Positions 21,869 through 63,683 of a DNA stretch of 64,000 nucleotides are shown here, piece after piece. Made by a program: the position numbers and the translations under genes. The notes below the pieces were generated by a model, which had not been told where the DNA came from, did no database searches, and was given only the letters and a program-made list of their open reading frames with translations. The stretch is taken from contig NZ_AP017422.1 in assembly GCF_002355595.1 (NCBI RefSeq), forward strand, positions 4,092,001-4,156,000, read 5' to 3'. Source of the stretch: Filimonas lacunae. Its GTDB lineage: Bacteria; Bacteroidota; Bacteroidia; Chitinophagales; Chitinophagaceae. The first letter of the stretch is position 1. Each line of letters begins with the position of its first letter.

Positions 21869-23248
21869 TCACCTTGGATTTTGAACAATATTGAGGTTGT
21901 TGCTGATAACCAGCGGTGCAAACGGAAACAGGTATTTGGGCGATCCCGCCGGAAGCCTCGCCAGTTCAGTAGTACCACTGGTGCGGGTAAGGTCTTTTTG
22001 ATAAGCCGCATCTTTGTTCAACCGTTTCAGATCAAACAGGCGCAAACCGCCATAATACACCAGCTCCCGTCTTCTTTCATCCAATACATAAGACAAAATG
22101 TTATCTGTAGTATAGGTTCGGGAGGTATAACTACTGGCAGTAAAGCGGTTTTTACGCAGCTGATCAACCAGCGCACCAGCATCGGCAACACTCCCTTTAC
22201 GGGCCAGGCATTCTGCTTTTATCAGCATTACCTCCGGCACCCCCACACTATTATCTGTGGTAATAACCGATACGCCATTTAAAAAGCCACTGCGAAATAT
22301 ATCCTGGTAAAACAACCGGGTATAACGTAGGTCTGCTGTGCCTAGCAATGTTTTCAGCGTGGCACCTATCAGATGAGGAGCAGTATAGGTTTTATAGTAT
22401 CCCCTGTCTATGCTAACACGGCCCAGCATAATTTCCGGATGTGCAGATAAATCAGTTAACTGGTTGGGCTGGAAATACTTTTTATTATAATCCAGCAGGG
22501 CACTTTGTAATTGCAGGGCAGAATCGGCAAAACGTTGCGCATCATCGTAATTGCCCATATACAAATAGGTTCTCGCCAGCAGGGCAAAACCGGATGCCTT
22601 GCCCGGATGAATGATATTCCTTCCCCTGGCAGGCAGGTAAGTGCTGTTTACTGCATCGGTAAGATCGGCCAATACCTGGTTGTAGGTTGTGGCTACGCTG
22701 GACCGGGCCGGACGCGCACTGGCATCCGGTGTTAGTATTAACGGTACAGCCAGATCGGTAGCCGCAGTGGTGGCATTATAAGCAGGGCCATATATATTAG
22801 CCAGTTGCAGGTAATACCAGGCACGATGTATTTTAGCTTCTGAAATAATTGTACTCCTGGTTTCTTCGGTATTCAGACTGTCCGCTTCTGCATTCCCTAT
22901 CCTGTCCAGGATAATATTCAATTGCAGTATCCGGGAATAATAACCATTATACATCCAGTCCTGATCGGCCGATCCCCAGATGATACTGTTCCACAGGTAA
23001 GTGCGGCTGAAATTATTATCTGATTGCAAATGATTGTTCGACATGGTAATATCATCGGTGATCAGATCTGCCAGCAGGTTATTATTGGTACCCAGCGAGT
23101 CGTTGTTCAGCATTTCCTGGAAATCGGAAATTTTGGTAGGATTCACCGTTGTGGAAGAAGCCCGGATGTCCAGGAACTTTTTACAACTTACCAGCATCAT
23201 CCCACCGGAAATACAAAGCAACAGGTATAGATATTTATACATTTTCAT
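21869..23248 (-). CDS. SusD/RagB family lipoprotein
   Basis: A 459-residue outer-membrane lipoprotein (lipobox LVSC, then KKFLDI, as in SusD proteins) with the TPR-like helical SusD fold suggested by AWYYLQLANIYG and LAKRGS-like C-terminal segments. The ATG at 23248 is used; the frame extends to a TTG at 23257. It lies 10 bp after the SusC stop. The ligand is unknown, and no carbohydrate-active enzyme lies nearby. Confidence 0.9.
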   Translation of the reverse strand: MKMYKYLYLLLCISGGMMLVSCKKFLDIRASSTTVNPTKISDFQEMLNNDSLGTNNNLLADLITDDITMSNNHLQSDNNFSRTYLWNSIIWGSADQDWMYNGYYSRILQLNIILDRIGNAEADSLNTEETRSTIISEAKIHRAWYYLQLANIYGPAYNATTAATDLAVPLILTPDASARPARSSVATTYNQVLADLTDAVNSTYLPARGRNIIHPGKASGFALLARTYLYMGNYDDAQRFADSALQLQSALLDYNKKYFQPNQLTDLSAHPEIMLGRVSIDRGYYKTYTAPHLIGATLKTLLGTADLRYTRLFYQDIFRSGFLNGVSVITTDNSVGVPEVMLIKAECLARKGSVADAGALVDQLRKNRFTASSYTSRTYTTDNILSYVLDERRRELVYYGGLRLFDLKRLNKDAAYQKDLTRTSGTTELARLPAGSPKYLFPFAPLVISNNLNIVQNPR

Positions 23249-23258
23249 GATTGTCAAT

Positions 23259-26200
23259 TTATAAGCCCAGGTTAAGCGTACAGGAATACTGACGAAGTAT
23301 AGGGTTGCCTATTTTACCATCAGAGCCTACACGGGAGGGATCTATTTTGTATTTATTGCGCGCCCATACAGCCGCATTCTGCACCTGTAGTGTAAACATC
23401 AGTGAACTCAGTTTCATTCTTTTTACCAGGGCATCAGGCGCGTTCCAGCCAATCATTATTTCCTGCAAACGGATATTATCCGCCGTAATCACGTTGTTAC
23501 TGGTGTTCTGTATCACGTAAGAACGGTTGCTGTTCACTCCCGAATTGGCAATGCGCGGTACATCGGTAAAGTTTTCATCACCTGGTTTGCGCCAGCGGTA
23601 TTTAACAATGGCGCTTCTGTCGCCAATGCTGCTGTACGAGGGCATGTAATACTTCATTACATAGCCCCAGCTAAACACCATAGAGGTTCGGGCAAAAAAG
23701 CGTTTGAAGCTGAATTCATGTATCAGCCCGCCCGTCCACGGCGCTTTTAACACACCTGCATATACCAGGGAGGAAGCCAGCGTAGCGCTGTCAAAAGAAG
23801 CCGTTACCCCGCCTTTGGCATCATAGATCTGCGGATCGCCCTGGTTGTTAAGCCCGGCCCATTTATACGTCCACAGATTACTGGTATTATACCCGCTGCG
23901 TAAAGCAGTAGCATAACTGCTGGAGGCGCTATAAGCAGTAACAGGAACACTTTTGGCTACGTTTACATTATAAGCGCCGTTCAGCGTGAGCATATAGGAG
24001 AACGTTTTTGTTTTTACCAGCGTGTTTTTAAGAAAGAATTCAACGCCTTTATTAATAATGGTGCTGTAAGTAACCTGCGAGCTTACGCCGGTGGCAGGGT
24101 CGGTATAGGAAGGCACATAGCTGTTAAGGCCCGATGTGGTTTTGTTATAGTAACGCAAATCCAGCAGGTACCGGTCGTTGGCCATTCCAACAGCACCGTG
24201 GATTTCCCAGTTCACATTCTTCGGTGGCAGCGTGCTGAAATCGTTATTGGTAGCCAGGCTATACCCGTTTCCGGATGCCACATTAGTACCCATCATCAGG
24301 CTTAAGCCCTGGTAGGGACTGATATTCTGCATCAGGCCCCCCACTTTCAACGTAGTGATCTTTTTAGAATGGAAATAGGTTTCGCGAGCTATATCATATT
24401 CCAGCGTACCATTCAGCTGTGTTTCTCCTTCCGGCGATTTATTATAGTTCACTGCCACATTCAGCAGGTTATGCCGGAGCGATCCCTTCATACCCGCGCT
24501 CATATACCGTTGCTGGTAAGAGGTATCCTTGCTTTTATCTGTGCTGGAATACGTGGTAGTAGCACCCGATATTTTATTGGTGTTATAAGCCACATCCACA
24601 GCCAGCTTTTCACCTAATAACTTCCAGGTAAGCTTCTGGTAATAATTGATAGTGCTTTGTCCCTTTTGCTGGTTAGGCGATACGCCGTTTACCCAGATAG
24701 TATAATCGCCCCAGTACACCTGCTGATACCGGCTGTTGGTGTAAGCTACCGGCAGATCGGGCATTTTAATAACTCCCCGGCCCGCAGATAAGTACAGGGA
24801 ATTGAAAAGACTACGGTCACCTTTGCGGTTAAAAAGCCGGTAAGTAATATCCAGTTTGTTATTAGACAATACCGCATAGGTGCCCTGCTGCCCATACAGG
24901 GGGCTGAGAGCATTGTTGATATCCCCACTGATAGTAAGCAGCCCATTGTAGTTGTAAGAAAGAGAGGCGTTATAGTTGATAGACCTGCTTCTGGAGGTAT
25001 CGCCATTAACAGCAGTGACCAGTGTATAAGGATTGATGTTTACGCCACCGTATTGCTCAAATAAAGCATAAAAGTTTTTGATGCTGGCAGTATTGGATGG
25101 TGTGGGTAAAAAAACAGGTACACCGGTTTTAGTAGCCGGGTTATAGCCATATTGTGTGTAGCTGACCGGCTTCCACGAATAGGTGCTGGAGGCGCCCGCA
25201 CCAACGGAAGCACTAAAGCTATGCTTCCCTATCTGTTTGTCGTAGTTTAAACCGGTACGTACATTCCAATCGCTTGTATGCCGGGTACCGGACATCATAA
25301 TGTTACCCCAGGGTACATAAAAGTTGATGCTGCCACCTGGTGACAGTTCCCCGTAATTATCTACCAGCTGCCGCACGTAGCTGGACTGTTTATCGTAAAA
25401 CGACTCTGTGGCATTTTTAGTTTGGGTAATATACACAGATGTTTTCCAGCTAAGATTATCCACCAGGTTCCAGCTCATGTTCAGCCTCGACTGCACTTGT
25501 CTTGTTCGGGCGGTAGCATTGTTTAACCGTGCATCTTCCAGCACGTTTACGCCATAGTTTCTATAACCACGCGACATAATTAAAGCATTGTAGTCGGGCG
25601 ATAAAGCCGTGTTATCATATACATAATTGCCTTTGGCATCCAGCAACATCTGGTAGGGCTCTATAGCACTGCCTGCGGGATCGAAAGTGTATCCCGAAAC
25701 AGCCGTACCCTGCCCATACTTTGCCAGCCAGTCAATTTTTAATTTACTATTGAGCAGGTTCCAGTGCGTATTCATATTAATACTGCCATCTTTGGAATGA
25801 TTACCAATAGTGCTTTCCCGGCTGTTGTTATACATGCCTGTGATAGCAAAATTGTACAACCGGCCGCCGCCCGTGAGGGTTAATGTATGGTTTTGTTTAA
25901 AAGCATTTTGTTGCAGCAGCTGCAGTTGCTGCTCATTACTTAACCCACGCAACGAATCCCAGCTTTGGTTAAAAGCTTCTTCGGTGATCTTGCCCAGGTA
26001 ACGCTGTGCCAGCAGGCGTGCAGCGGCACTGAGATTGGTGGCTGTAGGGTCCCGCCTGGTTTGAATTACAGAGTCGTAGTCTTTTACATAATCCAGGTAA
26101 TCACCCGTATTCGTTTGCCTGTACTTGTCAGTAGTGTATGTAGGGGTAGGTGAAAAATAAAAGTTAGTAGCATAGTTTATCCGGATAGTACCCCGCCTGC

Positions 26201-49772: not shown

Positions 49773-51317
49773 ATGGCACAAAAGCCCATAGCAATGGAAC
49801 AATTAAAACAGATTATTCAGCTTCAAAAGGATGGTGTCGGTATACGTGAGATAGCCCGGCGTATAGGCATCAGCCGTAATAGTGTGCGTAAATACATTGC
49901 TTTGCTTGCTGCAGATACTCCTGTTGAAGAATCCGATAATAAAACGCTTGCTGACAGAGCCTATGGAAACGATAGCGTGGTTCATGATGCAAACCGCCTG
50001 CAACAACTGATTACTCATTTTCAATATGCCCAGGTTGAATTGAATAAAACCGGTGTGACACGGCAATTGCTCTGGCAGGAATACATGGTTCAACATCCAG
50101 ACGGCTATGTGTACAGCCATTATTGCCACCACCTCAATCAATACCTTAAAAACAGGGACTTATCAATGCACCTGGAATACCAGGTAGCCGATATGATTAT
50201 GATCGACTTTGCAGGTAAAAAGCAGTCTTATATAGACCTATCTACCGGCGAGCTTGTTCCATGCCAGGTCTTTGTGGCTATCCTGCCTTTTAGCGGTCTT
50301 ATTTTTTGCCTGGCGGTACATAGCCAGCAAACCGCAGACTTTACCACCTGTATCAATGCTATGTTGATGTTTTATACCGGTGTGCCCGCCACCATTCTTT
50401 GCGATAACCTGAAAACTGCCGTAACCCATCCCAGCCGGTATGAACCTGTTTTTACAGATATATGCCATCAGCTCAGTGAGCATTATAACACCACCTTTAG
50501 TGCAACCCGCCCGTATAGCCCCAGAGATAAAGCGATGGCAGAACGTGCTGTTAATATAGTATATACTCATGTGTATGCTCCTTTAAGAAACCGGGAGTTC
50601 ACCAGCCTGCAGGCGCTAAATGTAGCCATGCAGGAACAGCTGCTCCTGCTCAATAACAAGCCTTACAAGAATACACCTTATAGCCGCTGGTATTACTTTG
50701 AACAGCAGGAACGCAGCGCCCTTAAACCATTACCCACCGAACCCTTTAGCCCTAAAAAGGTGGTTACTCTTACGGTTCAACGCAACTACCATATACAGCT
50801 CTCAGAAGATCATCATTATTACAGCGTACCCTATGTGCATGTAGGCAAAAAGGTAAAAGTATTGTATGATCACCGGACGGTAGAAGTATACCTGGATCAT
50901 CAGCGTATAGCCCTGCATATACGCAAAAGCCACCAAAAGTCGTATACAACACTGGCTGAGCATATGCCTCCCCATCATCAGCAGATGCAACAGATTAAAG
51001 GCTGGAATCGGGAAGACCTACTGGCCCAGGCAACCCGTATAGGTCCCTCTACATACCAGGCGGCAGCACTTATGCTGGAAAATAGCATTTACATAGAGCA
51101 GAATTACAAAGCCTGTTTTGGCATGCTGATGCTCTCGAAAAAATACGGATCCGGACGGCTGGAAGCTGCCTGCGCCCGCATACTACAAGGCACCCGTGTT
51201 AACTACACCATGATCAGGAATGTTCTGGAACGTGCCCTTGACAAACAGTTGCCATTAGAAGAAGCACCACCGCCACTAACCCATGATAACATAAGAGGTA
51301 AAGAGCATTATCAATAA
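49773..51317 (+). CDS. istA: IS21 family transposase IstA
   Basis: A 514-residue DDE transposase. An N-terminal HTH (GIREIARRIGISRNSVRKYI, residues 21-40) precedes an RNase H-like catalytic core with the three acidic residues visible as IMIDFAG, LCDNLKTAV and DKAMAERAV. A beta-barrel-like C-terminal region follows. It pairs with istB 18 bp downstream. The frame is full-length and uninterrupted. Confidence 0.95.
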   Translation: MAQKPIAMEQLKQIIQLQKDGVGIREIARRIGISRNSVRKYIALLAADTPVEESDNKTLADRAYGNDSVVHDANRLQQLITHFQYAQVELNKTGVTRQLLWQEYMVQHPDGYVYSHYCHHLNQYLKNRDLSMHLEYQVADMIMIDFAGKKQSYIDLSTGELVPCQVFVAILPFSGLIFCLAVHSQQTADFTTCINAMLMFYTGVPATILCDNLKTAVTHPSRYEPVFTDICHQLSEHYNTTFSATRPYSPRDKAMAERAVNIVYTHVYAPLRNREFTSLQALNVAMQEQLLLLNNKPYKNTPYSRWYYFEQQERSALKPLPTEPFSPKKVVTLTVQRNYHIQLSEDHHYYSVPYVHVGKKVKVLYDHRTVEVYLDHQRIALHIRKSHQKSYTTLAEHMPPHHQQMQQIKGWNREDLLAQATRIGPSTYQAAALMLENSIYIEQNYKACFGMLMLSKKYGSGRLEAACARILQGTRVNYTMIRNVLERALDKQLPLEEAPPPLTHDNIRGKEHYQ

Positions 51318-51335
51318 TTACATAAACTAAAAAAA

Positions 51336-52076
51336 ATGAACACAACGCAAACGCTTCAGCAAATGCAACAACTGCGACTGCCAGGTATGTACCAGGCTTA
51401 CCGTTCCCAGCTGGAACTATCTATGGATCAGCAACTGGATGGTCATGAACTAATAGCCCACCTGCTTCAATCTGAAGAACAAAACCGTTCTAATGAAAAA
51501 ACAGCTCTTTGCCTTAAGCTCGCAAAGCTCCGGCTACCAGTGACCATAGAACAAGTGGAATGTAGTCAGGCCAGAAACATCACTAAACAACAACTGGCTA
51601 TGCTGGCAGAAGGCAGATACCTCTTACAGGGAGAAAACATACTGATTACGGGTGCAACCGGCTGCGGAAAAAGTCATCTGGCGTGCGCTCTGGGACACCA
51701 GGCGTGCCTGCATGGTTATAAAACTATTTACCTGAACATGAACCGGCTTGCGGAGAAGATAACCCTGGCCAGACTGGATGGCTCTTATATTAAACTTTTA
51801 AATCAACTGGAACGCCAATCCCTGATTATCCTGGATGACTTTGGCCTGGCACCGATGACGCAGGATATGCGTCTTACCTTACTACAGTTACTGGAAGACC
51901 GGTATGGGAAAAAGAGTGTTATTGTGACCTCACAATTACCAGTTGCAAAATGGCATGAATACTTAAACGATCCCACCTTAGCTGATGCCACGCTTGACAG
52001 GCTGACAGCCAATGCTCACCGGGTGGAACTCAAAGGTGAATCTCTCCGAAGAAAAAAAGAGAAAGCTAATCAATAA
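51336..52076 (+). CDS. istB: IS21 family helper ATPase IstB
   Basis: A 246-residue AAA+ ATPase that selects target DNA and stimulates IstA. Walker A is GATGCGKS (106-113) and Walker B is SLIILDDFGLA; the fold is related to DnaC. It follows istA by 18 bp within the IS. Confidence 0.95.
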   Translation: MNTTQTLQQMQQLRLPGMYQAYRSQLELSMDQQLDGHELIAHLLQSEEQNRSNEKTALCLKLAKLRLPVTIEQVECSQARNITKQQLAMLAEGRYLLQGENILITGATGCGKSHLACALGHQACLHGYKTIYLNMNRLAEKITLARLDGSYIKLLNQLERQSLIILDDFGLAPMTQDMRLTLLQLLEDRYGKKSVIVTSQLPVAKWHEYLNDPTLADATLDRLTANAHRVELKGESLRRKKEKANQ

Positions 52077-53479: not shown

Positions 53480-53499
53480 AGGACACGGATAAAAACAAA

Positions 53500-53530
53500 A
53501 AAGCCTTGTAATCAATGATTACAAGGCTTT
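53500..53530 (+). terminator. Terminator of the AraC gene
   Basis: Fourteen-base perfect arms AAAGCCTTGTAATC and GATTACAAGGCTTT with a 3-base AAT loop, preceded by an A-run and followed by TTTTA-like sequence. Confidence 0.85.
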
Positions 53531-53534
53531 TAAA

Positions 53535-53726: not shown

Positions 53727-55724
53727 TTATATTACAGCCCCCGATTTATTAATGATTTCTCTTAATGACCAAATGCCATTAGTTAAGATTGTATTGTCTA
53801 AAAACATATCATCAGTAATTCCTAAGGGTACCATTGCCATATCTGTAAGAGTGCCTTTAATCTGGTCTAATCGATGCTCTATTGGTTTTCCAGGTTTTGC
53901 AGCAATACTTCTTCGAAAATCCCAAAATGCGGTCCCATTGTATTGCCACGATATAATCCGACATCTTGGAAATACGGTTGTTGTATTCCCTAATAAGCCA
54001 TCTGTGCGAAAATCCGTGAGCAATTCAAAATCGATGGAATAATTATGTGCTATATCAGGATGCTTGTACTGCATAGTCATTCCTTTAGACAGCAAAATCA
54101 TAGTTGTTGGGATTGGACAAGTATTTTCTATATCATTTATTAGTTTAATGGCCTTCTCGAGCTCAAGCTTGTATACCGGTGTAGACAAATCATGATGAGC
54201 CTGTGGGTTTAACAACATTAGCTTCGTCTGTTCAAAACTTTTTATAATATTATCTGAAATTTTATGTCCTAAACTCTGATATCGTTCTAAAAGTCTTTCC
54301 CACAAAAACTGCAGGTTGTTGGGCTTACCGTCGATTACTCGCGTTATTTCCTCTTGAATTCGATCATAAACTATCTTTTCCAAAGATTTTCTGATATACA
54401 AAGCACTTGCAGTATAATCATGCGCTTCGAAATATCTTTTGGCTTTGTCATAATACCCAAACTCTCCCGGAATTATCACTGGATACGGTACTCCTGCTGG
54501 ATCAATTCCTCTATACATTTCACTAATTTTCCAATCACTTAAATTGGATTTTTGTTTGATGAACAACTTTACAAATTCAAAAAAAACTTTATCATGTGTT
54601 AATATCAACAGCTGGTGTGTGCTCAGATAATCGTCAAATATAAGCGCCAGTACCTTTTCTCTGTTGCTCATATCAAGGCTGATCAGCAAATCGTCTAGTA
54701 CTAGAATCTTTAACTTGGGATTTCCTGTTTCAAGCGATTTCTTTAAAACCGCTAACCGTAAAGCTAACCCAATGGCTGTAAGTTTGGCCTCGTTCAAAAA
54801 TGAATGTGGCCTATAAACGACATCTCTTTCTCCTTCGTATTCCGGTATACTGAGTTTAATATAAAATTTAGGACGTATGAATTTTTGCTCAGACAAAGTA
54901 AATGATTCTCTACTCAATCTTTTTCCTTTGTATACTGGTTCCTCTTCTAGCTCAAGCTTAAAGGTTAAATCATAGCCCAACTGGTCTTTCAAAATTGGAT
55001 TTCCTTCTGTATTGATAAAAGTTATTAGTGTGTTTAAATCAGTTTTAAATCTATCAACCAAATTTTTGTATTCCGTATATTGGATTTCGCCTCTTTTAGG
55101 ATATCTCGTATGGCCTGTTCGATTAGGTACATTTTTTTGCGGTCCATTTTTTACAAACTCCCAGATTTCGGTTGCACTGTCTGTTGTCAATGAAATAATC
55201 GCATTTGTTACATCATTATGCCAATATGTTGCCGGTGTGAACTTGACATAAGGCAACACTGCGTATTCAAAGAAACCAAACACGTCAATTTCATCGGAAT
55301 GTGCAAAATTGTATAAACTTAATAGATTTCGATAATTTATGAAATCAGACGCATAATTGCTCTCCTTAGCATTTTGATTTGTATTGATTGTAGTGTCAGT
55401 AAATGAAACGTTAAACTCTGTTCCATCCTTAAGCTTTATTTTTACATAAGAATCTACCCAATTGGGTGTGCCATGTTTTAAATGTATATTTATCAATCTT
55501 TCTTTCTCAAGTTCATCATGGCTGAAATACTTCTTAATTTGTTCAATATTTTCTTTGTTTGAGCATTCAAGTAAAGTATAAAGAGCCCAATAGATAGAAC
55601 TTTTACCACTCCCATTTTCACCAAATAATAGCCAATGTTTCCCTTCGAGCTTTATTGGTTCGTTCAGCTTAGGAAAGAATTTGAAATTCTGTATGTATAT
55701 ATCCTCAATAAAAGAAGCAGCCAT
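53727..55724 (-). CDS. RecF/SMC-like ATPase with C-terminal DUF4145-like domain (defence operon)
   Basis: A 665-residue ABC-type ATPase: Walker A GENGSGKS (35-42), a degenerate signature FLNEAKL (309-315), Walker B LVLDD (341-345), D-loop SLD (349-351) and H-loop H377 in LTHD. The region between Walker A and signature is short with no long coiled coil, unlike RecN/SMC. From about residue 425 a helical region (YFEAHDYTASALYIRKSLEKI... NPQAHHDL) resembles DUF4145/HEPN-like domains, followed by about 110 residues I do not recognise. It is the last gene of the operon, 3 bp after the methyltransferase. Probably a sensor or effector subunit. Confidence 0.8.
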   Translation of the reverse strand: MAASFIEDIYIQNFKFFPKLNEPIKLEGKHWLLFGENGSGKSSIYWALYTLLECSNKENIEQIKKYFSHDELEKERLINIHLKHGTPNWVDSYVKIKLKDGTEFNVSFTDTTINTNQNAKESNYASDFINYRNLLSLYNFAHSDEIDVFGFFEYAVLPYVKFTPATYWHNDVTNAIISLTTDSATEIWEFVKNGPQKNVPNRTGHTRYPKRGEIQYTEYKNLVDRFKTDLNTLITFINTEGNPILKDQLGYDLTFKLELEEEPVYKGKRLSRESFTLSEQKFIRPKFYIKLSIPEYEGERDVVYRPHSFLNEAKLTAIGLALRLAVLKKSLETGNPKLKILVLDDLLISLDMSNREKVLALIFDDYLSTHQLLILTHDKVFFEFVKLFIKQKSNLSDWKISEMYRGIDPAGVPYPVIIPGEFGYYDKAKRYFEAHDYTASALYIRKSLEKIVYDRIQEEITRVIDGKPNNLQFLWERLLERYQSLGHKISDNIIKSFEQTKLMLLNPQAHHDLSTPVYKLELEKAIKLINDIENTCPIPTTMILLSKGMTMQYKHPDIAHNYSIDFELLTDFRTDGLLGNTTTVFPRCRIISWQYNGTAFWDFRRSIAAKPGKPIEHRLDQIKGTLTDMAMVPLGITDDMFLDNTILTNGIWSLREIINKSGAVI

Positions 55725-55727
55725 AGC

Positions 55728-58700
55728 TTAATGTGTTGTACTATTAATTCCACGTATGTAATTACTATTAATATTGGCAGAAATGATTCTGTTTCGAATT
55801 GGGTTGTCTCGTTCCTGAAGCCATTTATATATTCTTCCTACTGTCTGGGCATTTTCCAACGGATTTTTTGTAAGCGGTGGAAATGTATCTTCTGTGATAA
55901 ACTGTAAAACATCTACTTCTAGTTCTTTCATATGTTCTTCGAAATAAAGCTCGTAAATCATCATGTTCAATGTATCTTCAAAAACCTGTGCTATGTTTTC
56001 ATTTTCGGTATAGGAATTTACAGCAGGAGTAGTTGTATCATTCAAAAAAAGCATATAGTCAGAAGCTACCTCAATTTTTTTAGAATTACTATTAATGAAT
56101 GCTATCGGTAATTGCTCAATTTTATATTTTTTCCATCTGTTAGTACCCATTCCTGATGTAGTTGTAATTTGATTAAAATACCATGACGCTAGCCTTGAGT
56201 TTAGAATAGATAAAAGATACTTTAAGTTATCTCCTGTCATAAAGAATAATGTTGCTTCAGGGTACATACCTTTATCATCATAAGCAAACTTTGGTTTATC
56301 AGATAGCTCTCCCCATACTAACTTAGGCTTTTCGAACTCTGTATAATATGCAACGTTGTCTTGTATTTCGTACCATTTATATGGTCCTGGTTTCCTCCCT
56401 ACCTTGTCTCCCGGTTGTCGCGGCTTTAATCGGTCATATGATTTGTATAGATGATCTCTAATTTCCGGAAATTCATCGATATTAATGCCCCTTCTTGTGA
56501 AAATAATATACTGTTCTTCAAATTTATAGCTATAGCTTTTAACATTTCTACCCCTGATAATAGGTTTAATTATTTTTGCATTATCAGGATTAAGTTCAAT
56601 CAATTCGTCATAAGTTTTCTTGTCGATTATAAAAGCTTCATTAAGGCCCGTTTTTATTCCAAAATTAATTGTCATATTTAGGTCCTTCAATAAGATGGAT
56701 TTTTTTTCTATTTCATTTTTTGTATCATATTCTTTCCTTGAGAGGATAATCCATCCTTCGTCGCTTAAATCACTTAGTTCAATTGAATTAGAGCTATAGT
56801 AGTTTACAATTGAATCACCTGAAGAATAATCGGATCGAAATACTACGGCTTTCAATTTTTGTTCCCAATGTCCCTTTTTAAATAGCAGAATATTAGTCTC
56901 AACTGTTGCTGAATGGAATATTTTTGTATCCTCAAAATTTAAAAGTTTTAGAGGATTTGTATATTGGGTAAGGTATTTTCGCAATAGGCTACCATATTGA
57001 GTTTTTAACCATGAGTTTGAAGTTATATATGCTAATACCCCATTGTTCTTAAGCAAATTATTACCTTGTTCATAAAAGAGGCAGTACAAGTCACCAGTTC
57101 GAGTGAATGTTAAGTATCCGGCATGCTCTAACTCGTTTGCCTCCTTAATCATTTTTTGAAGTTGTATGTAAGGTGGATTTCCAATTACAATGTCAAATCC
57201 TCCATTATCAAATACATCCTTAAAGAATACATGCCATAAGAAATAAGGTTTTTCTTCTGTATTTTGTATATCGTGAAGTCGAGCCCTTTTAACTGAAAAC
57301 GATACTAGATCTTGCTTAAGGTCTTTTAGTTTAGCTCTAGCCTTATTGTTTAATTTTTCCTCATCACCTGCTTCTTCTATTACTCGGCTGAGTTGTGCTT
57401 CCCTTAGCTCAAGATTATAGTCTATATGTTTGTGAACTTTCTGATTAATTTCGTGTTTCAAATCTGCTTTTTCGGCGGGCTCCTTTTCGTTGAAATACTG
57501 TTTCATTAATTGTTGTATTTCCTTTATCGTTCCAGTTTGTGCAAATGTTATCTTCATTTGGCTTTCCAATATATTGCCAAATAAATCTTTTTCAGCTTCA
57601 TAAACGGTTAAGTTTTTTTTACTACTTCCAATTAAACTTAAGTCGATATCTTCGAATCTTTCCAATAGACTATTTCCTTGCATTATTTTATAGTCTAAAT
57701 TTGGGAGCGGTTGGGGTACTTCTTCATCTACCACCAATGCCAACCAGAAGCGTAACCTGGCTATCTCTACAGCACCATGCTCTAGATCTACTCCATATAT
57801 ACTTCCTTCTATTATTTTTTTCTTGGCTTGGACAGGATCAAAAGGAGTAACAGGGTTAAGGTAAGGGTAGATGTGGATCTTGGCTTTGTATATCTCTTGC
57901 AAAATACCAATAGGAAATGCTCCTGATCCAATAGCAGGATCACAAACTTTTACCTGATCTAATAAATTGTTAATTTTTATTGCATTTGCCCTGTCACGCA
58001 GATATTCAGAGATATATTGCTTTCTGATAAATTGCTCTATCTCAGCTTCTTTCGGCATATAAACTCTTAAATACTCAATCAGACTTTCTTGACACATGTA
58101 GTTGACAATCTCTTTAGGAGTATAAAATGCTCCCTTCTCCCTATTTTCTTCAAGTAAGTTTTCAAAAATATGGCCTAGCATTTCTGGGTCAATGCCAATC
58201 TCTTGCTCGTCCGGACTATTTTCGTCAATAGTAAAATTGTATTGTTCAAAAAACTCCAATAAATCCTTGAAGTAAACCGCTGGAAAATCTATATGATCTG
58301 TATTAGGCTGGTCGTTGTCAAACAGACCACCGTTAAGATAAGGAACCCTGCTATTAGTTATTGGAAAAATATTATTAGGCCTATCCGGTTGATTTAATGT
58401 ATTGAAAAATAGTTTACTTAGACATTTACTATAGAAGTGATCTTGCTCGTTGAATTGTTTAAATAAGTCGTGTAGGAAACTAGGATTACCATCCTTCCAA
58501 ATTTCTTTATTTTTTTTAGATGTTGACAAAACTGGGCAGCCCATCCATCCTTTCTTTTGTAGAAAATGAAGGAAAACGATTCGTCCCAATAACTTTTTCG
58601 AAAAATCTCTAAGCGGCTTTCTTTGCTCATCCTGAGTTTTTTCAGGGGATGTGTCTATAAGTAATTTTTTGTAAGCTGGAGTATCATCAATAAATCGCCA

Positions 58701-59285
58701 AAATCTTTCGTAATGCTCTTTATATTTTTTAAAAAACTCTTTAGTTAATGCCTCAACCGAAAAAGCCTGAATTATTGAGTCAATACTTATTACCGGCTTT
58801 TTTGCAGCAATTTCTAAAAGACGTTTAGCAGCAGTGCTACCACTTTGATTTTCTCCTAGTAGATAAGTGTAACGTCTTTTTTGAGTTTCCCCCTTTTTAA
58901 ATTCTCCTGTTTTTAAATCAATTTCACTCCACTTCGCTATAAATGTTAAACGATAAAGTGCTTGATTGCGAGAATGATAAAAAACTAATGCTCCATGTGT
59001 GATATTCTGATCTATATATTTTACGGCAATTTCTCTCAATCCCTGGCGATTACGTTCAATATTGATATGGTCGTTTACCTCAACTTCGAAAATCGAAATG
59101 AACTTATCCTGATCAAGCCTAATACGTCCAACTTGTTTCCCTGAAATAACGTTTTTATCCTCTCGGAAAGGATTGCTGGGTGTCGAAAAATATTCTACAT
59201 TACCAAAAACGAAATCTAAAATAGGCTTCCAAACGGTAACACTACCCCCATTTTTGAATATATCTTTTATTTGTCGCTCGTTCAT
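55728..59285 (-). CDS. Eco57I-like adenine-specific DNA methyltransferase (defence operon)
   Basis: An 1185-residue gamma-type N6-adenine methyltransferase. SAM-binding motif I is DPAIGSGAFPIG starting at D449, and catalytic motif IV is NPPY at 703-706. A helical region precedes the core (GHIFENLLEENREKGAFYTP) and a TaqI-like target-recognition domain follows (INFGIKTGLNEAFIID, RGRNVKSYSY). The N-terminal ~200 residues contain FEVEVNDHINIERNRQG but no convincing PD-(D/E)xK nuclease, so it may only methylate, with cleavage supplied by partners. It is 3 bp from each neighbour. The size and layout resemble PglX and type IIG enzymes. Confidence 0.9.
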   Translation of the reverse strand: MNERQIKDIFKNGGSVTVWKPILDFVFGNVEYFSTPSNPFREDKNVISGKQVGRIRLDQDKFISIFEVEVNDHINIERNRQGLREIAVKYIDQNITHGALVFYHSRNQALYRLTFIAKWSEIDLKTGEFKKGETQKRRYTYLLGENQSGSTAAKRLLEIAAKKPVISIDSIIQAFSVEALTKEFFKKYKEHYERFWRFIDDTPAYKKLLIDTSPEKTQDEQRKPLRDFSKKLLGRIVFLHFLQKKGWMGCPVLSTSKKNKEIWKDGNPSFLHDLFKQFNEQDHFYSKCLSKLFFNTLNQPDRPNNIFPITNSRVPYLNGGLFDNDQPNTDHIDFPAVYFKDLLEFFEQYNFTIDENSPDEQEIGIDPEMLGHIFENLLEENREKGAFYTPKEIVNYMCQESLIEYLRVYMPKEAEIEQFIRKQYISEYLRDRANAIKINNLLDQVKVCDPAIGSGAFPIGILQEIYKAKIHIYPYLNPVTPFDPVQAKKKIIEGSIYGVDLEHGAVEIARLRFWLALVVDEEVPQPLPNLDYKIMQGNSLLERFEDIDLSLIGSSKKNLTVYEAEKDLFGNILESQMKITFAQTGTIKEIQQLMKQYFNEKEPAEKADLKHEINQKVHKHIDYNLELREAQLSRVIEEAGDEEKLNNKARAKLKDLKQDLVSFSVKRARLHDIQNTEEKPYFLWHVFFKDVFDNGGFDIVIGNPPYIQLQKMIKEANELEHAGYLTFTRTGDLYCLFYEQGNNLLKNNGVLAYITSNSWLKTQYGSLLRKYLTQYTNPLKLLNFEDTKIFHSATVETNILLFKKGHWEQKLKAVVFRSDYSSGDSIVNYYSSNSIELSDLSDEGWIILSRKEYDTKNEIEKKSILLKDLNMTINFGIKTGLNEAFIIDKKTYDELIELNPDNAKIIKPIIRGRNVKSYSYKFEEQYIIFTRRGINIDEFPEIRDHLYKSYDRLKPRQPGDKVGRKPGPYKWYEIQDNVAYYTEFEKPKLVWGELSDKPKFAYDDKGMYPEATLFFMTGDNLKYLLSILNSRLASWYFNQITTTSGMGTNRWKKYKIEQLPIAFINSNSKKIEVASDYMLFLNDTTTPAVNSYTENENIAQVFEDTLNMMIYELYFEEHMKELEVDVLQFITEDTFPPLTKNPLENAQTVGRIYKWLQERDNPIRNRIISANINSNYIRGINSTTH

Positions 59286-59288
59286 TGT

Positions 59289-62200
59289 TTATACAGTAAA
59301 ACTTTCGGTGATAATTATATCTGGATTCAAATTTTTGATTAAAATAGATGGAGCCACTTCTGGAATTATATCTTCTTGGGTTCTTTCCAAAGGATATGAT
59401 CTTAGAATACCCATCACCTGTTCTAGAAGAAGTACAGGATTAAGAGGTGTTTTTTTTACAGCTTTTTGCAATTTGTTTAAATCCCGCTGAAGGTTTTGAA
59501 ACTTCCCTTTTCGTATTGCTTCTTTAGCTTCAAGAATCAACTCTTTTTCGAAAGAATTAGCAAAAGAAAGATTTAAAAATGCATCTAAATAAGCTAAAGC
59601 TTTTTTTTCATTTGGACCCTGTGTAATATCTACTTTTTTATCCCGCGCTTTCTCCTCTTCTATGGTATTAGAAAAATGTTCAACAGCTTTTTGAACTTGC
59701 TTATGGTGAAGACTATGCAGATTGAAAGCCATTTCATCTCGTTTTGCCTCAAATTGCTTTGCTGTTTCAAGAAAAGTCAGTTCCTCAATTTCGTTATTGG
59801 ATTTTACATATAGAAAAGAATCTCTGCGAGAATCGCGAATAAACGAAATCGTACTATCTCGAATTATTTTGCTTTTCCTTCCTACCCTTGCTCTTAAAGG
59901 CATATTCTTTACCTTCTTGAAAATTTCCGGCTCTTTTTCTCTTAGCTCTCTGAGCAACATGAGGTAAATTAGCTTTTCATCACGATCTTCCTCTATTGCA
60001 TGATCAAAAATTCCAAAAGTTTGTGTTTCTTCATCAGGTGAGTATATTTGACTATCTTCTCCTAAGGCAGCATGAAAAGCCTGTAATTTCATGATGGCTT
60101 TCTTCTCCAATTCAATATCACTATTAACCTTAGTAGTAGGAAAGAAATTGAAAATATGAATTTCACTGGCTTTTGATCCAATCCTATTTACCCTCCCGAT
60201 ACGTTGCATTAATCGTGTTGAGTTCCAGGGAGTGTCGTAGTTAATAATGATATTGGCTCTATGCAAATTCACACCTTCTGCTAGCACCTCAGTGGACAAT
60301 ATAATGTCGTAATCGTTTTTCTGTTCCATTAATGGATAGTTAGCGTCGAAATTGGCTCTTATCACAGGCATACGTTCTTTTCTTGACTTACTATCTACTG
60401 TAATAACCCTTTTATCAATTTCAGCTTTAAGCTTTAATTCTAAATAAGCTGTAGTCTCTTTACTTTCTGAGAATACGACAAGCTTTTGCTCTTTATTTAT
60501 TTTTTTATTAAATAGCTTTTCTTTTAGATAAATTACAAACTGAGCTAACTTAGGATCTTCATCAACTCCCCTCCAATCCATATTTAACTCCATTAAGATA
60601 GCATAGTCTCTCTTAAGGCCAACGATAAACTCTGGTTCAAAATCATCGGGTTCGCATATTTCAATAGTAGGATCTTCTAGAGATTTATTAAGCAGCAAGT
60701 CTAATAACTCTTCCTCTTTACCCTCATTAATATAATCCGATACGGGAAGATTAGGCGCTATATAAATCTTACCATTATCGAACATCCTCACCATCGCTTT
60801 TGTCGCATTTAGAAATCGCTCCAATGATTGTTTGAATGCATGAAAACTGCTATCGATTCTTTTTACCAGAAGGGTTTTCATAATTTTAGCCAACTGGGAT
60901 GAGATCATATCTGCCTTCTGGTATTTATTCTTTCTGTGCGGCTTTAAGAAGCCTATGGCTCTATACCTGTTATAGGTCAATCCGTCTGTGGGATGACTTA
61001 AGCAACGAATTGTTTTATCATACAGCAAATCTAGTCGTGGCTCTAGTTCATAAAATATTTTTTCCGGTTTTTGAACATGTGGAAAGCTAATACCTTGATC
61101 GATTAAATCTTGAGCATATTGTTTATGAATAGTTAAGTCAGTCCTTGTTCTCCTTACAGTAAGAGGTTCTATTATTTTTATCCTAATTTTATCATATATA
61201 TGTTTTACACCTTCTTTTACTTTTTCTAAATTCTTTTCATCCCTTAACTTTCTATATGCATCGATTTGCTGTCGAAAAAACTGCTGAAGGTTTCCTACTT
61301 CAAGAGTAGAGTTCTTGCTGTCCTGAAATAGGTATACTTGATTAGCAATGTCTTCGGGTCTGTTATTAAGAGGGGTTGCAGAAACTAAAATAATTCTTTT
61401 TAGTTCACGACTGCCGTCTGGTAAAATCTTTTTAGTTCGTGACTTGCAGATTTTCTGCAAATCATTATACATTCCAGAAGTATCAGACCTAAATTTGTGT
61501 GCTTCATCAACTATAACTAGATCGTATTTATCTGGGTTATTAATTCTATGTAAACTTCCATTAGTGATGATCTCAACATTATCTAAGTGAAACTTATCTA
61601 TTGTCTCTACCCAATTTTCTTTCAGCGCAGGAGGTACTATTATTAATGTTCTTGAGCGGTAGGTTGGGAATCCGTTTGAATAGAAGTATTTCTTCGCAAT
61701 CAATGTAGATACAATAGTTTTTCCTAATCCAACAACATCAGCTAAGAAGAATCCATTATGCTTTATCATTTTCGAATACCCATCATTTACTGCATCAATT
61801 TGATAGGTCAATCTCTTAAAGCCTTTTGGTAAATCTGTTATAGAATTCGGATCAAAATCTATGCTTTTACCAAAATATTCTACAAGGAACTTTAAATATA
61901 CTTCATAAGGTGTAAAAGTAGCATTAAGGAAGGTCTCCTTTGTTAACCTTTCAATGTATTCTTCCGCTACAGGCGTTGATTCCTTCCACAGTTTTTCGAA
62001 GGTCTCCTTTGCAAATTCAATATCGGAATTGTCTCTAAGTTCAACATTGAATTCGAAATTATGGCTGAGTCCAGCTTCAGTTAAGTTACTGGATCCTGTG
62101 ATAACAGCGCCGTACCCATGACTATGTTTTTCTTTTTCTCGGAAAATATAAATTTTAGCATGGATATTTTGTTTAGGGTGTATTCTTATTAGAACTTTTT

Positions 62201-62555
62201 TAGTTACGATATCGTGTATTAATTGTGTCATTCCTCGTTCTACATCTTGATCATATTCAGCAGTTTGAATATTTTTTTTGATTTGATTGAAGAAGTCTTC
62301 TTGTGCACGTTCTATGTCGCCATCAAACAATAATCCTTGTTGATAGGCTTGGTGAATCATCTTATCAATATTAATCCCCACCAATATTCTTATCTCATCA
62401 CTTTTTTCTATAAATTTCCTGATTCGGAAATATCCTGATGCATGAAAATAACCAACCAGCGCATCAAAAAAGTAGATATTTCGATATTTGAATATGCCTT
62501 CAATTTTATTTAGAAGCGTATTTTCATTTTCGTTAGTGAAAAACTTTGTCGACAT
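59289..62555 (-). CDS. PLD-nuclease/SNF2-helicase fusion (defence operon)
   Basis: A 1088-residue fusion. Residues 1-200 form a phospholipase-D-like nuclease domain with one HKD motif (IHAKIYIF, H132/K134, then GSSNLTEAG, 154-162). Residues ~245-850 are an SF2/SNF2 helicase: Walker A DVVGLGKT (273-280), DEAH (350-353), SATPLNNR, and C-lobe FSESKETTAYL, LAEGVNLHRANIIINYD and QRIGRVNRIGS. The C-terminal 230 residues are helical and unassigned. It probably translocates on DNA and cuts it. It follows the XRE gene by 4 bp and precedes the methyltransferase by 3 bp. Confidence 0.9.
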   Translation of the reverse strand: MSTKFFTNENENTLLNKIEGIFKYRNIYFFDALVGYFHASGYFRIRKFIEKSDEIRILVGINIDKMIHQAYQQGLLFDGDIERAQEDFFNQIKKNIQTAEYDQDVERGMTQLIHDIVTKKVLIRIHPKQNIHAKIYIFREKEKHSHGYGAVITGSSNLTEAGLSHNFEFNVELRDNSDIEFAKETFEKLWKESTPVAEEYIERLTKETFLNATFTPYEVYLKFLVEYFGKSIDFDPNSITDLPKGFKRLTYQIDAVNDGYSKMIKHNGFFLADVVGLGKTIVSTLIAKKYFYSNGFPTYRSRTLIIVPPALKENWVETIDKFHLDNVEIITNGSLHRINNPDKYDLVIVDEAHKFRSDTSGMYNDLQKICKSRTKKILPDGSRELKRIILVSATPLNNRPEDIANQVYLFQDSKNSTLEVGNLQQFFRQQIDAYRKLRDEKNLEKVKEGVKHIYDKIRIKIIEPLTVRRTRTDLTIHKQYAQDLIDQGISFPHVQKPEKIFYELEPRLDLLYDKTIRCLSHPTDGLTYNRYRAIGFLKPHRKNKYQKADMISSQLAKIMKTLLVKRIDSSFHAFKQSLERFLNATKAMVRMFDNGKIYIAPNLPVSDYINEGKEEELLDLLLNKSLEDPTIEICEPDDFEPEFIVGLKRDYAILMELNMDWRGVDEDPKLAQFVIYLKEKLFNKKINKEQKLVVFSESKETTAYLELKLKAEIDKRVITVDSKSRKERMPVIRANFDANYPLMEQKNDYDIILSTEVLAEGVNLHRANIIINYDTPWNSTRLMQRIGRVNRIGSKASEIHIFNFFPTTKVNSDIELEKKAIMKLQAFHAALGEDSQIYSPDEETQTFGIFDHAIEEDRDEKLIYLMLLRELREKEPEIFKKVKNMPLRARVGRKSKIIRDSTISFIRDSRRDSFLYVKSNNEIEELTFLETAKQFEAKRDEMAFNLHSLHHKQVQKAVEHFSNTIEEEKARDKKVDITQGPNEKKALAYLDAFLNLSFANSFEKELILEAKEAIRKGKFQNLQRDLNKLQKAVKKTPLNPVLLLEQVMGILRSYPLERTQEDIIPEVAPSILIKNLNPDIIITESFTV

Positions 62556-62559
62556 CTTA

Positions 62560-62862
62560 TTACTTCATTTCCTTTGCAGGTATTTTAATATATTTTTCAG
62601 CCATCTTTAGCCCTTCAGGTAAATATTCCATTTCCCCAAAATCTTTATTTATTTTATCAGCAATAAACCTAGCTTGAATATCCTTAAGGTTTATTTGTAA
62701 AATTTCGGAAAGAGGTTTTAAATACTCAGGTAACGCTGAACGTTCATTCCTTTCTATTTTACTGAGTGTCGAAGTATCTATATCAAGATAAGCTGCAACT
62801 TTTCGAAGCGGTAACCGCTTTGCATCCCGATATAGCCGAATATAACTACCAAAGGATTCCAT
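62560..62862 (-). CDS. XRE family regulator of the defence operon
   Basis: A 100-residue protein with an N-terminal XRE/Cro helix-turn-helix (LPLRKVAAYLDIDTSTLSKIE). The length and position fit the small controller proteins of restriction-modification operons. The start at 62862 is chosen as it directly precedes the HTH; the frame is open to 62892 but that part overlaps the promoter/operator region. It is the first gene of the four-gene operon and probably autoregulates it. Confidence 0.85.
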   Translation of the reverse strand: MESFGSYIRLYRDAKRLPLRKVAAYLDIDTSTLSKIERNERSALPEYLKPLSEILQINLKDIQARFIADKINKDFGEMEYLPEGLKMAEKYIKIPAKEMK

Positions 62863-62878: not shown

Positions 62879-62941
62879 GACAATTGTGTCAAAATTAGGA
62901 AATATATTTCTCATTGTCAAGGTGTTTATTATATAAACAAA

Positions 62942-62967
62942 AAGCCACCTATTTCGGTAGGTGACTT
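62942..62967 (-). terminator. Terminator of the second XRE gene
   Basis: Arms AAGCCACCTA and TAGGTGACTT pair with one wobble around a TTTCGG loop; on the minus strand the stem is followed by TTTTTGTTTA. It separates the XRE gene at 62990 from the defence operon. Confidence 0.7.
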
Positions 62968-62989: not shown

Positions 62990-63409
62990 TTATTTCTTCT
63001 TTTCTCCCAAAAGCTTTTCTAGTAAGATAATCTTGTCTCGTTCACTTTTCAATAAAGCTTCGTATAATTTTTTATTTTCCTCTATAGCCTCTATGTACTT
63101 ATCCATAGGATTAAACGTACAGTTAAAATAATCGCGGCCAAAGTGAGTAGAGTTTGCAGTAGCCCCTTCATAATTATGCTGAATATTATAAATAGCCGCC
63201 TCCTCATTAAAGTTCTTAATCGCATCTACCGGCACCTTTAGCGTCTTTGCAATCAACTCCAACTGTTCCGGTTCAATGGTTTCTTTGGTTTCTAATAAAG
63301 AAACACTCTGCTGGCTGATATTGAGGGCATCAGCCAATACATCCTGTTTAACATGCAAGATTTCTCTAAGGCGTTTTACCGCGCGTCCTTGGTGTACTTT
63401 TTCAGGCAT
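62990..63409 (-). CDS. XRE family protein with C-terminal coiled coil
   Basis: A 139-residue protein with an XRE HTH at about residues 10-65 (VLADALNISQQSVSLLETKE) and a charged coiled-coil tail (KLYEALLKSERDKIILLEKLL). The start at 63409 is the ATG closest to the HTH; the frame extends to 63430. It has its own terminator and is separate from the defence operon. Role unknown; its linker (NYEGATANSTHFG) is not a domain I know. Confidence 0.82.
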   Translation of the reverse strand: MPEKVHQGRAVKRLREILHVKQDVLADALNISQQSVSLLETKETIEPEQLELIAKTLKVPVDAIKNFNEEAAIYNIQHNYEGATANSTHFGRDYFNCTFNPMDKYIEAIEENKKLYEALLKSERDKIILLEKLLGEKKK

Positions 63410-63683
63410 ACTGGTAATTGTCATAGTCACAAAGATATTGAAAACTAATAATTTGGTATCCTACTTCATCCGGGCTGGTTAGATACCAAGGGTTATTCCC
63501 GGTTAACTATTCGGTAAAATACAACTAATTTTTGTTAACGCACAGGCTTGCTTAGTGGGGTACGGTTCCCGGGGATGGTAATTTACCACACGAATCAGGT
63601 ATCAAACAGCCGCCAGTAGTGCAATACTCTACCGGAGCTATTATGGACAACCATCTCCCTTAACACCATTAAACTAGCCAGTT

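Follow-up and report, generated by a model that had tools for sequence, protein, structure and literature searches.

We analyzed a four-gene operon in a 64,000-nt stretch of Filimonas lacunae DNA (hereafter the window; GCF_002355595.1, NZ_AP017422.1, positions 4,092,001-4,156,000 of the forward strand), which belongs to a single-contig genome of 7.8 Mb. All four genes lie on the minus strand in the order XRE regulator, HKD-SNF2 fusion, methyltransferase, and ATPase, with intergenic gaps of 4, 3, and 3 bp (Table 1). With moderate confidence, we interpret the locus as an ATP-dependent restriction-modification (R-M) operon with a built-in PrrC-like suicide guard, the ATPase, docked on the C-terminal tail of the methyltransferase. 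The gene set, its catalytic motifs, the linkage between tail and ATPase, and the co-divergence of the two are read directly from the sequences. We refer to the ATPase, whose C-terminal domain carries a PrrC/RloC-like (HEPN-type) residue pattern, as ABC-HEPN.

The textbook example of immunity coupled to suicide is PrrC as the guard of a type I restriction enzyme, and to our knowledge it is unclear so far how such a guard recognizes its R-M partner. Here, an ABC-HEPN family with a PrrC-type catalytic pattern comes with a short, defined partner tail, and the two are present, absent, and shuffled together. The surprising part of this proposed R-M system with a PrrC-like guard is its putative docking tail, which is possibly general.

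The ATPase Is an Optional Add-on to a Helicase-Methyltransferase Core

A search with the helicase alone (E ≤1e-60) matched 34 of 395 genomes of the phylum, our own included; a 35th match, a 167-residue fragment in G712, was excluded, and the 34 loci form our helicase-selected set. The methyltransferase gene lies 3' of the helicase, on the same strand and within 2.5 kb, in 31 of these loci. The remaining three either stop at a contig edge (two loci) or have the methyltransferase upstream (one locus). At 31/34 loci, the pairing of helicase and methyltransferase exceeds chance. The HKD-SNF2 protein and the methyltransferase are the core of the operon, which is of the ATP-dependent R-M kind. Twenty-seven helicase-selected loci allow a view of the region 3' of the methyltransferase; 8 of them have a whole ATPase gene, 2 a broken one, and 17 none. 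The ATPase is an optional add-on to the core. An earlier interpretation made from the letters of the window (the sequence-only reading) had assigned the ATPase to a sensing and translocation core. This assignment was not supported: the ATPase is missing from 17/27 loci and bears a PrrC/RloC-like R-x3-E...H domain, and the two properties together suggest a guard or second effector that docks on the methyltransferase. Scanning nine additional proteins from eight helicase-methyltransferase loci, we also noted exchangeable extra genes in or beside the operons, which encode a KAP NTPase (L086, L087), a YhcG/DUF1016 nuclease (L079, L081, L094), Schlafen AlbA_2 (L025), NYN (L059), and DUF4062 (L061) proteins; one protein had no match.

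Helicase residues H132, K134, N157, and E168, together with those of the Walker, DExH, and VI motifs, are invariant in 32 aligned relatives (of 46 at hand, the window included), and the PLD domain matches RE_NgoFVII in Pfam with E 7e-8. In the methyltransferase, D449-P-A, G453-S-G-A, and N703-P-P are invariant across 30 and across 52 aligned sequences. The best Foldseek match of its structural model (predicted local distance difference test score (pLDDT) 86) is CamA (E 4.8e-28), followed by PglX/BrxX, BseCI, and MmeI. A methyltransferase and a target-recognition domain (TRD) on one chain, a feature of type IIG enzymes, are present as Eco57I plus TaqI_C, and the PADLOC profile REase_MTase_IIG scores 543 bits. 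The strand order of the N-terminal 145 residues is read as PD-(D/E)xK-like from the model, with no separate fold search. In the window protein, however, EVE replaces ExK, and the aligned positions are variable among the 52 sequences. We thus rejected a type IIG enzyme with its own active PD-(D/E)xK nuclease, and the operon's nuclease is therefore most likely the HKD domain. Two methyltransferases, L165 and L167, keep the N-terminal ExK; they have the tail and ABC-HEPN, and no family helicase is visible at these loci. It seems that either the methyltransferase N terminus, as in L165 and L167, or the helicase supplies the nuclease. The sequence-only reading had described an Eco57I-like methyltransferase without a clear nuclease, which agrees with the Eco57I match and the EVE motif. 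It had also proposed self-marking by methylation and cutting by the PLD domain, and both are supported as predicted activities.

In six relatives (L146, L090, L084, L088, L092, L097), inverted partial copies of the TRD region adjoin the methyltransferase gene, for instance over 314 nt at 95% identity in L090 (L090:11025-12862) and over 47 nt at 96% in L146 (L146:17343-20080 and 22710-23363). L146 also has an annotated Mpi-family invertase. Specificity switching by inversion is probable in these relatives; no inverted TRD copies were seen in the window.

A C-terminal Tail Accompanies the ATPase

We examined the neighborhood of the ATPase family in a wider range of genomes. The single ATPase as query found no relatives in a close-relative scan of genome contigs; an alignment-based scan succeeded, and the best 80 of 125 relatives were kept. 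By their titles, these best 80 of 125 come from Bacteroidota, Poribacteria, Pseudomonadota, Planctomycetota, and others. The ATPase scans gave 86 loci in total, of which the neighborhood census took 80 from genomes; L214, L225, and L230 had no ATPase ORF (open reading frame) above threshold, leaving 77 loci with a usable one. Seventy-three of them show more than 1.2 kb of upstream sequence, and a protein matching the methyltransferase profile lies within 2.5 kb upstream in 65. Where more than 8 kb is visible (n = 59), we found a methyltransferase match in 55 loci and the helicase too in 46. For some ATPases no close upstream ORF was named, among them L064, L205, and L236, which are at contig starts.

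At eleven loci off contig edges, the match of the immediate ATPase partner to the methyltransferase profile is confined to its C-terminal TaqI_C part (L026, L027, L183, L187, L190, L193, L194, L195, L196, L200, L218). In L190 and L200, a methyltransferase ORF immediately precedes this partner. Pfam confirms TaqI_C in 9 of 10 such partners scanned, not in L027, and adds TIR-TPR in L193, L194, and L195, FRG-TPR in L183, and TPR in L187, L196, and L218. In L193, L194, L195, L183, and L314-L318, the ABC-HEPN gene directly follows a TIR-TPR-TaqI_C or FRG-TPR-TaqI_C protein. These look like a family of TRD-guided defense proteins. Four Poribacteria genomes have two or three tail copies each.

ATPase-linked methyltransferases extend a median of 121 residues beyond TaqI_C, versus 71 in the others. 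We trained a longer tail model on either half of the 66 linked proteins; the half left out of training reached medians of 102 and 103 bits, with 33/33 above 10 bits both ways. The same longer model gave medians of 11.7 and 11.3 bits for 37 unlinked methyltransferases, 23 and 21 of which exceeded 10 bits because the model spans a stretch common to both groups. With the full model, twelve unlinked proteins scored above 50 bits: ten have a broken, displaced, or contig-edge ATPase, L140 lies at a contig edge, and L132 has none. At L132:11421-16388, ORFs that by eye resemble genes for beta-lactamase-fold, SIR2-like, and HerA-like ATPase proteins follow the tailed methyltransferase in the place of the ATPase.

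The helicase-selected set was chosen regardless of the ATPase. Among its 27 visible loci, tail and ATPase occur together in 10, the tail alone in 1 (L132), the ATPase alone in 0, and neither in 16 (Fisher p 1.3e-6, not corrected for kinship). A model confined to aa 1112-1185 returned 105 matches in 7406 ORFs at E <0.01. Thirty-nine of these are outside the training set; one is a piece of a broken ATPase, and the other 38 matches are at or near the C terminus. A whole or broken ABC-HEPN ORF lies downstream of 36 of the 38, within 1 kb in 30 cases. Seen from the ATPase, a tail ORF is found no more than 4 kb upstream of 95 of 103 ATPase ORFs and within 200 bp of 88. As most loci were retrieved via the ATPase, these neighbor counts are not independent. 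Three of the eight ATPases without a tail ORF are at contig starts; L027, L066, L168, L170, and L223 are not.

A search by the tail profile only depends less on the ATPase. In the 395 genomes it gave 18 places, 15 of which are followed by ABC-HEPN sequence, interrupted in L269, L271, and L281 and cut by a contig edge in L270. The other three are L279, at a contig end, and L280 and L283 (the L132 locus), where no ABC-HEPN follows. Fourteen of the 18 places were known loci; the new ones (L270, L274, L280, L281) comprise three with ABC-HEPN and one without. In 20 chosen genomes, we located six extra tail copies, all six followed by ABC-HEPN (4 whole, 2 broken), and five of them sit on TIR-, FRG-, or TPR-TaqI_C proteins. 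A tail search of the L223 genome gave no match.

The tail also occurs without a TRD. Among the 7406 ORFs, weaker matches were detected once each in a GmrSD_N protein (L068, with 34.8 bits and E 1.9e-9) and in a Z1 protein (L226, with 24.7 bits and E 1.1e-5). The two genes lie directly upstream of the ATPase, and apart from the tail neither protein matches the methyltransferase profile. Another GmrSD_N protein, L223, is matched by the longer tail model only. In L217 and L175, the GmrSD-type gene beside the ATPase has no tail, which is found on an earlier ORF. The tail gene and the ATPase are not always adjacent: six loci have 1.5 to 3.9 kb inserted between them.

We next compared distance matrices in 65 loci with all three full proteins. 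The rho with the ATPase is 0.553 for the tail, 0.195 for the stretch just before it, 0.115 for the catalytic domain, 0.112 for the helicase, and 0.056 for the TRD, and bootstrap intervals of the differences between the tail and each other part exclude zero. In 44 less redundant loci, the ATPase-tail value is 0.511 versus 0.117-0.293. The co-divergence of ATPase and tail is consistent with protein contact and also with exchange of the two as one DNA cassette.

The C-terminal Domain of the ATPase Carries a PrrC/RloC-like Pattern

The sequence-only reading had named a RecF-like ATPase. This is accurate for the N-terminal part, an ABC head, and overlooked the C-terminal domain. In our structural model (pLDDT 90), aa 408-537 are helical. 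A Foldseek search with the model gave 147 matches at E ≤0.001, and the 50 listed are led by the heads of cohesin SMC, Rad50, and RecF. We took a residue census of 102 distinct sequences among 103 ATPase ORFs passing score and length limits. Arg-445 and His-510 are present in all 102 homologs and Glu-449 in 100 (two have Asp), Asn-506 is found in 98/102, and a serine directly precedes the histidine in 80/102. Arg-445, Glu-449, and His-510 are the sole invariant domain positions in 66 whole proteins and in 71 of 101 excised domains; the 30 excised domains left out, many of them with a long insert, include both Asp rows. The excised domains share 16-49% identity with that of the window, and retention of the three residues at this level of divergence is hard to explain without catalysis.

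The RloC/PrrC motif has been described as Arg-x3-Glu-x36-52-His, often with a serine before the histidine (PMC2610378). According to the same report, it matches Arg-320, Glu-324, and His-356 of PrrC, and mutation confirmed that all three residues are required for RloC activity (PMC2610378). An ABC ATPase with a C-terminal Arg-x3-Glu...His triad is likewise what we find in 100/102 homologs, at a Glu-to-His spacing longer than published. For comparison, we inspected by eye five proteins of AAA_13: N-x2-S-H is present in 5/5 and R-x3-E in four, with Asp in L240. We took these proteins as RloC-type. AAA_13 is the Pfam family for PrrC/RloC and matches 7/17 members of the ATPase family (best E 1.5e-8). 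A profile search of the PDB with the C-terminal domain returned 27 chance-like matches at E ≤5, the best (E 0.0093) being a designed protein. HEPN-type Pfam matches among 71 members are weak (DUF4145 in 18, HEPN in 7, Ymh in 1; best E 1.2e-4). On balance, we consider it fairly likely that the product of the ATPase gene is a PrrC-like ribonuclease. In the literature searched, we found no earlier description of the ABC-HEPN family or the tail; if one exists, the 2020 ABC ATPase classification (doi 10.1093/nar/gkaa726), outside the coverage of the search, would be where to expect it. A strand-rich C-terminal extension (aa 540-665, window 53730-54107) follows the helical domain and is found only in the longer ATPases of the family.

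Proposed Mechanism

We infer the methylation product, DNA cutting, docking, and the RNase activity with its trigger as follows. The methyltransferase would find its DNA site via the TRD and methylate adenine, thereby marking self DNA. The HKD-SNF2 protein would translocate on unmarked DNA and cut it with its HKD site, the nuclease-like fold at the methyltransferase N terminus having presumably lost its catalytic signature. The ABC-HEPN protein may dock on the methyltransferase tail and stay silent while the complex is intact. Blockage of the restriction complex, or the sensing of phage DNA, DNA ends, or DNA damage, could release it through a rearrangement driven by ATP. Once freed, it would cut RNA, most likely tRNA, and translation would stop. 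The guard step is modeled on PrrC and EcoprrI, for which this logic has been published (PMC3710099).

If the tail is indeed a docking site, the interface is small and testable, and it explains how the ATPase comes to stand behind such different partners. What is annotated as a plain type IIG enzyme or as a TIR-TPR protein would then be one half of a two-layer defense. We tentatively go one step further, with slightly less than even confidence, and propose that the tail is a portable plug by which otherwise unrelated defense-type proteins all recruit the same suicide effector, one family of ABC-ATPase ribonucleases. Its carriers would be adenine methyltransferases, bare TRD proteins, TIR-/FRG-TPR-TaqI_C proteins, a GmrSD-type enzyme, and a Z1 helicase. 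In that case, the bacterial cell would have one guard enzyme whose docking code is shared, and relocating the tail would bring the guard along.

Alternative Explanations

Several of our results weigh against the reading as an R-M operon with a docked PrrC-like guard. For the RNase step, the listed Foldseek matches concern the ABC head, and His-510 borders a low-confidence loop of the model (residues 511-514). The Glu-to-His spacing is 54-83 in 79/100 homologs and 114-131 in 21/100, which exceeds the published 36-52. The window ATPase scores 20.8 bits against AAA_13, below the cut-off of 36 (hmmscan), and was not reported in the AAA_13 genome search. When aligned by hhalign to five domains of RloC type, the C-terminal domain gave a probability of 0.8%, which is not significant (controls, up to 1.1%). 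The weak HEPN-type matches cover about a third of the members at most; the window's own domain has none, its sole Pfam match at E ≤0.05 being irrelevant. The arginine of the canonical HEPN motif Rx4-6H (5-7 residues before the histidine) occurs in 28/102 homologs, not in the window protein. Alternatively, the C-terminal domain could be a noncatalytic HEPN/DUF4145-like module for dimerization or nucleic acid binding. The ABC protein would then sense DNA or act as a loader, and would control methylation or restriction where the TRD is bound, with no RNase step. We regard this as unlikely. It is in line with the Rad50/SMC/RecF-type heads among the listed fold matches, with the faint HEPN-type signal and the nonsignificant RloC-type comparison, and with the existence of HEPN families that lack RNase motifs, as mentioned in PMC3710099. 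However, it hardly explains why Arg, Glu, and His are kept in 102, 100, and 102 of 102 homologs at 16-49% domain identity, and the ABC-HEPN protein also follows partners without a methyltransferase.

For the docking step, co-divergence might stem from the adjacency of tail and ATPase on the DNA. The tail models were trained on ATPase-linked methyltransferases, which include 7 of the 11 tailed loci in the 27-locus comparison (L091, L093, L132, and L137 are outside the training set). Five ATPases (L066, L027, L168, L170, L223) have more than 1 kb of upstream sequence and yet no tail by the aa 1112-1185 model; only the longer model matches L027 and L223, at 38 and 39 bits. Two tailed genes, L132 (= L283) and L280, have no ATPase. 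It is conceivable, if rather improbable in our view, that tail and ATPase are co-inherited as DNA neighbors only, with TRD recombination swapping the 3' end together with the next gene and no contact between the proteins. The abrupt fall of rho at the tail boundary (0.553 versus 0.195) and the inverted duplicate TRD cassettes in the six relatives examined would both suit such an exchange. It accounts less well for the absence of the ATPase from all 16 tail-less methyltransferase loci of the helicase-selected set (0/16), for the recurrence of the tail on GmrSD_N (L068) and Z1 (L226) proteins without another methyltransferase-profile match, and for the six loci in which 1.5 to 3.9 kb separate the tail gene from the ATPase. 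Docking on the tail and a guard function remain our preferred reading. A third explanation is membership in Hma, whose name stands for helicase, methylase, and ATPase (PMC8565338) and which the sequence-only reading had brought up, or in the DUF499-centered BREX-related (BR) type 2 group. The operon shares with these an HKD-SNF2 helicase, a methyltransferase, and an ATPase; type 2 BR systems are described with an HKD-helicase fusion and an N6 methyltransferase (PMC12839542), and our helicase scores 102 bits against HmaA. However, the helicase matches C3a139 (160 bits) and DrmD (124 bits) better than HmaA. According to PMC12839542, HmaC belongs to the DUF499 ATPases, whereas the operon ATPase is SMC/RecF-HEPN-like, with no DUF499 among its eight Pfam families at E ≤0.1. 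The respective proteins match 50 and 42 PADLOC families, and the 25 best of each do not include HmaB and HmaC; HmaC is absent from the 12 PADLOC matches at E ≤1e-5, and Pfam detects no DUF3780 in the four genes or in the XRE-type gene upstream (XRE2). Without a DUF499 ATPase the operon is not Hma; we rejected Hma/BR type 2 on this ground and for the missing DUF3780, and consider membership very improbable. What survives of the sequence-only reading overall is a defense-type operon with self-marking and HKD cutting; Hma and the ATPase in the core fall away.

Comparison with Known Systems

The operon resembles PrrC/EcoprrI (type Ic R-M) and RloC in its N-terminal ABC ATPase, C-terminal R-x3-E...(S)H domain, and R-M-like locus, and likely also in guarding an R-M complex. 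It differs in that a TaqI/CamA-class methyltransferase, accompanied by an HKD-SNF2 protein, takes the place of HsdMSR as the partner, in the longer Glu-to-His spacing and the accompanying partner tail, and in a sequence relationship below significance. PLD-ATPase fusions with methyltransferases are a recognized R-M class: for CglI/NgoAVII, more than 95 homologs with fused PLD and ATPase genes are reported in PMC4267653. Our operon shares with CglI/NgoAVII/BceSIV a PLD-family nuclease, an SF2 ATPase, and a methyltransferase in ATP-dependent R-M, but has a SNF2-type rather than a DEAD-type motor, an adenine methyltransferase of the Eco57I/TaqI kind, and an extra ABC-HEPN gene. CxC-ABC/PbeABCD is described as an HKD-SF2 helicase and an ABC ATPase, with a DNA methylase in some loci, and DndE plus other parts (PMC10853773). 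The first three elements recur here; in contrast, no DndE-type gene or small protein is found among the four genes, and our ABC protein is short (665 aa, longest model helix 35 residues) and has the R-x3-E...H domain.

We rejected BREX, as the operon has no PglZ or BrxC and the methyltransferase scores 90 bits against BREX_1_MTaseX (cut-off 500). DISARM was rejected because the four genes include neither DrmA nor DrmB (DUF1998), a result confined to the operon, as the genome beyond it was not searched for them. The sequence-only reading had likewise noted the lack of PglZ, BrxC, BrxL, and the DUF1998 DrmB, and no core gene of BREX or DISARM is present among the four. DISARM class 1 does resemble the operon in its SNF2-like helicase, to which ours is related (DrmD, 124 bits), and in its adenine methyltransferase (DrmMI, 120 bits), although DrmA/DrmB are lacking and the helicase reaches 145 bits against the NCBIfam DrmD model with a cut-off of 610.

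Features of the Locus

The coordinates and Pfam domains agree with the four genes and the gaps described in the sequence-only reading, as do the HTH_3 match of its XRE controller and, for its PLD-SNF2 fusion, PLDc_2 and SNF2-rel_dom/Helicase_C in a single protein.

Table 1. Annotated features of the operon in window coordinates
Feature	Position	Strand	Basis
XRE/HTH_3 regulator, operon gene 1	62560-62862	-	100 aa from ATG; HTH_3 E 4.4e-9
HKD (PLD) nuclease-SNF2-type translocase fusion	59289-62555	-	1088 aa; Pfam PLDc_2, RE_NgoFVII, SNF2-rel_dom, Helicase_C
TaqI/CamA-class adenine methyltransferase with TRD	55728-59285	-	1185 aa; Pfam Eco57I, TaqI_C, N6_Mtase
Methyltransferase N-terminal domain, aa 1-145, alpha/beta	58851-59285	-	Model secondary structure, residue counts
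TaqI_C TRD of the methyltransferase, aa 907-1061	56103-56567	-	Pfam E 1.7e-21
Methyltransferase C-terminal tail, aa 1112-1185 (~74 residues), proposed ABC-HEPN docking site	55731-55952	-	Tail-profile searches, linkage, co-divergence
ABC ATPase with PrrC/RloC-like (HEPN-type) domain	53727-55724	-	665 aa; Pfam SMC_N, AAA_23
ABC ATPase head, SMC/RecF/Rad50-type, aa 5-400	54525-55712	-	Walker A GENGSGKS, LNEA signature, DD Walker B
Helical C-terminal domain, aa 408-537, with R445-x3-E449...N506-x3-H510	54114-54503	-	Homolog alignment, model
Candidate operator, inverted repeat TTTGACA...TGTCAAA up to the XRE start codon	62862-62893	.	Read by eye, without statistics
Terminator-like hairpin between upstream XRE2 gene and operon	62942-62967	-	Computed hairpin
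Perfect palindrome with T tail 3' of the ATPase, probable operon terminator	53499-53531	-	Computed

The XRE ORF has an alternative, longer TTG start at 62892 in the ORF list. The region contains 6 terminator-like matches against a shuffled mean of 5.9, so that only the placement of the hairpins supports them. XRE2 (window 62990-63430) lies just upstream, is followed by a terminator-like hairpin, and was excluded from the operon. The G+C content of the operon is ~34%, versus 43-50% elsewhere in the window (2-kb bins, two edge bins excepted). By appearance, with no domain search made, an IS21-like pair (window 49773-52076) is located close to the low-G+C operon, and a tyrosine recombinase-like ORF (L266:7111-8205) lies ~6 kb past its other side.

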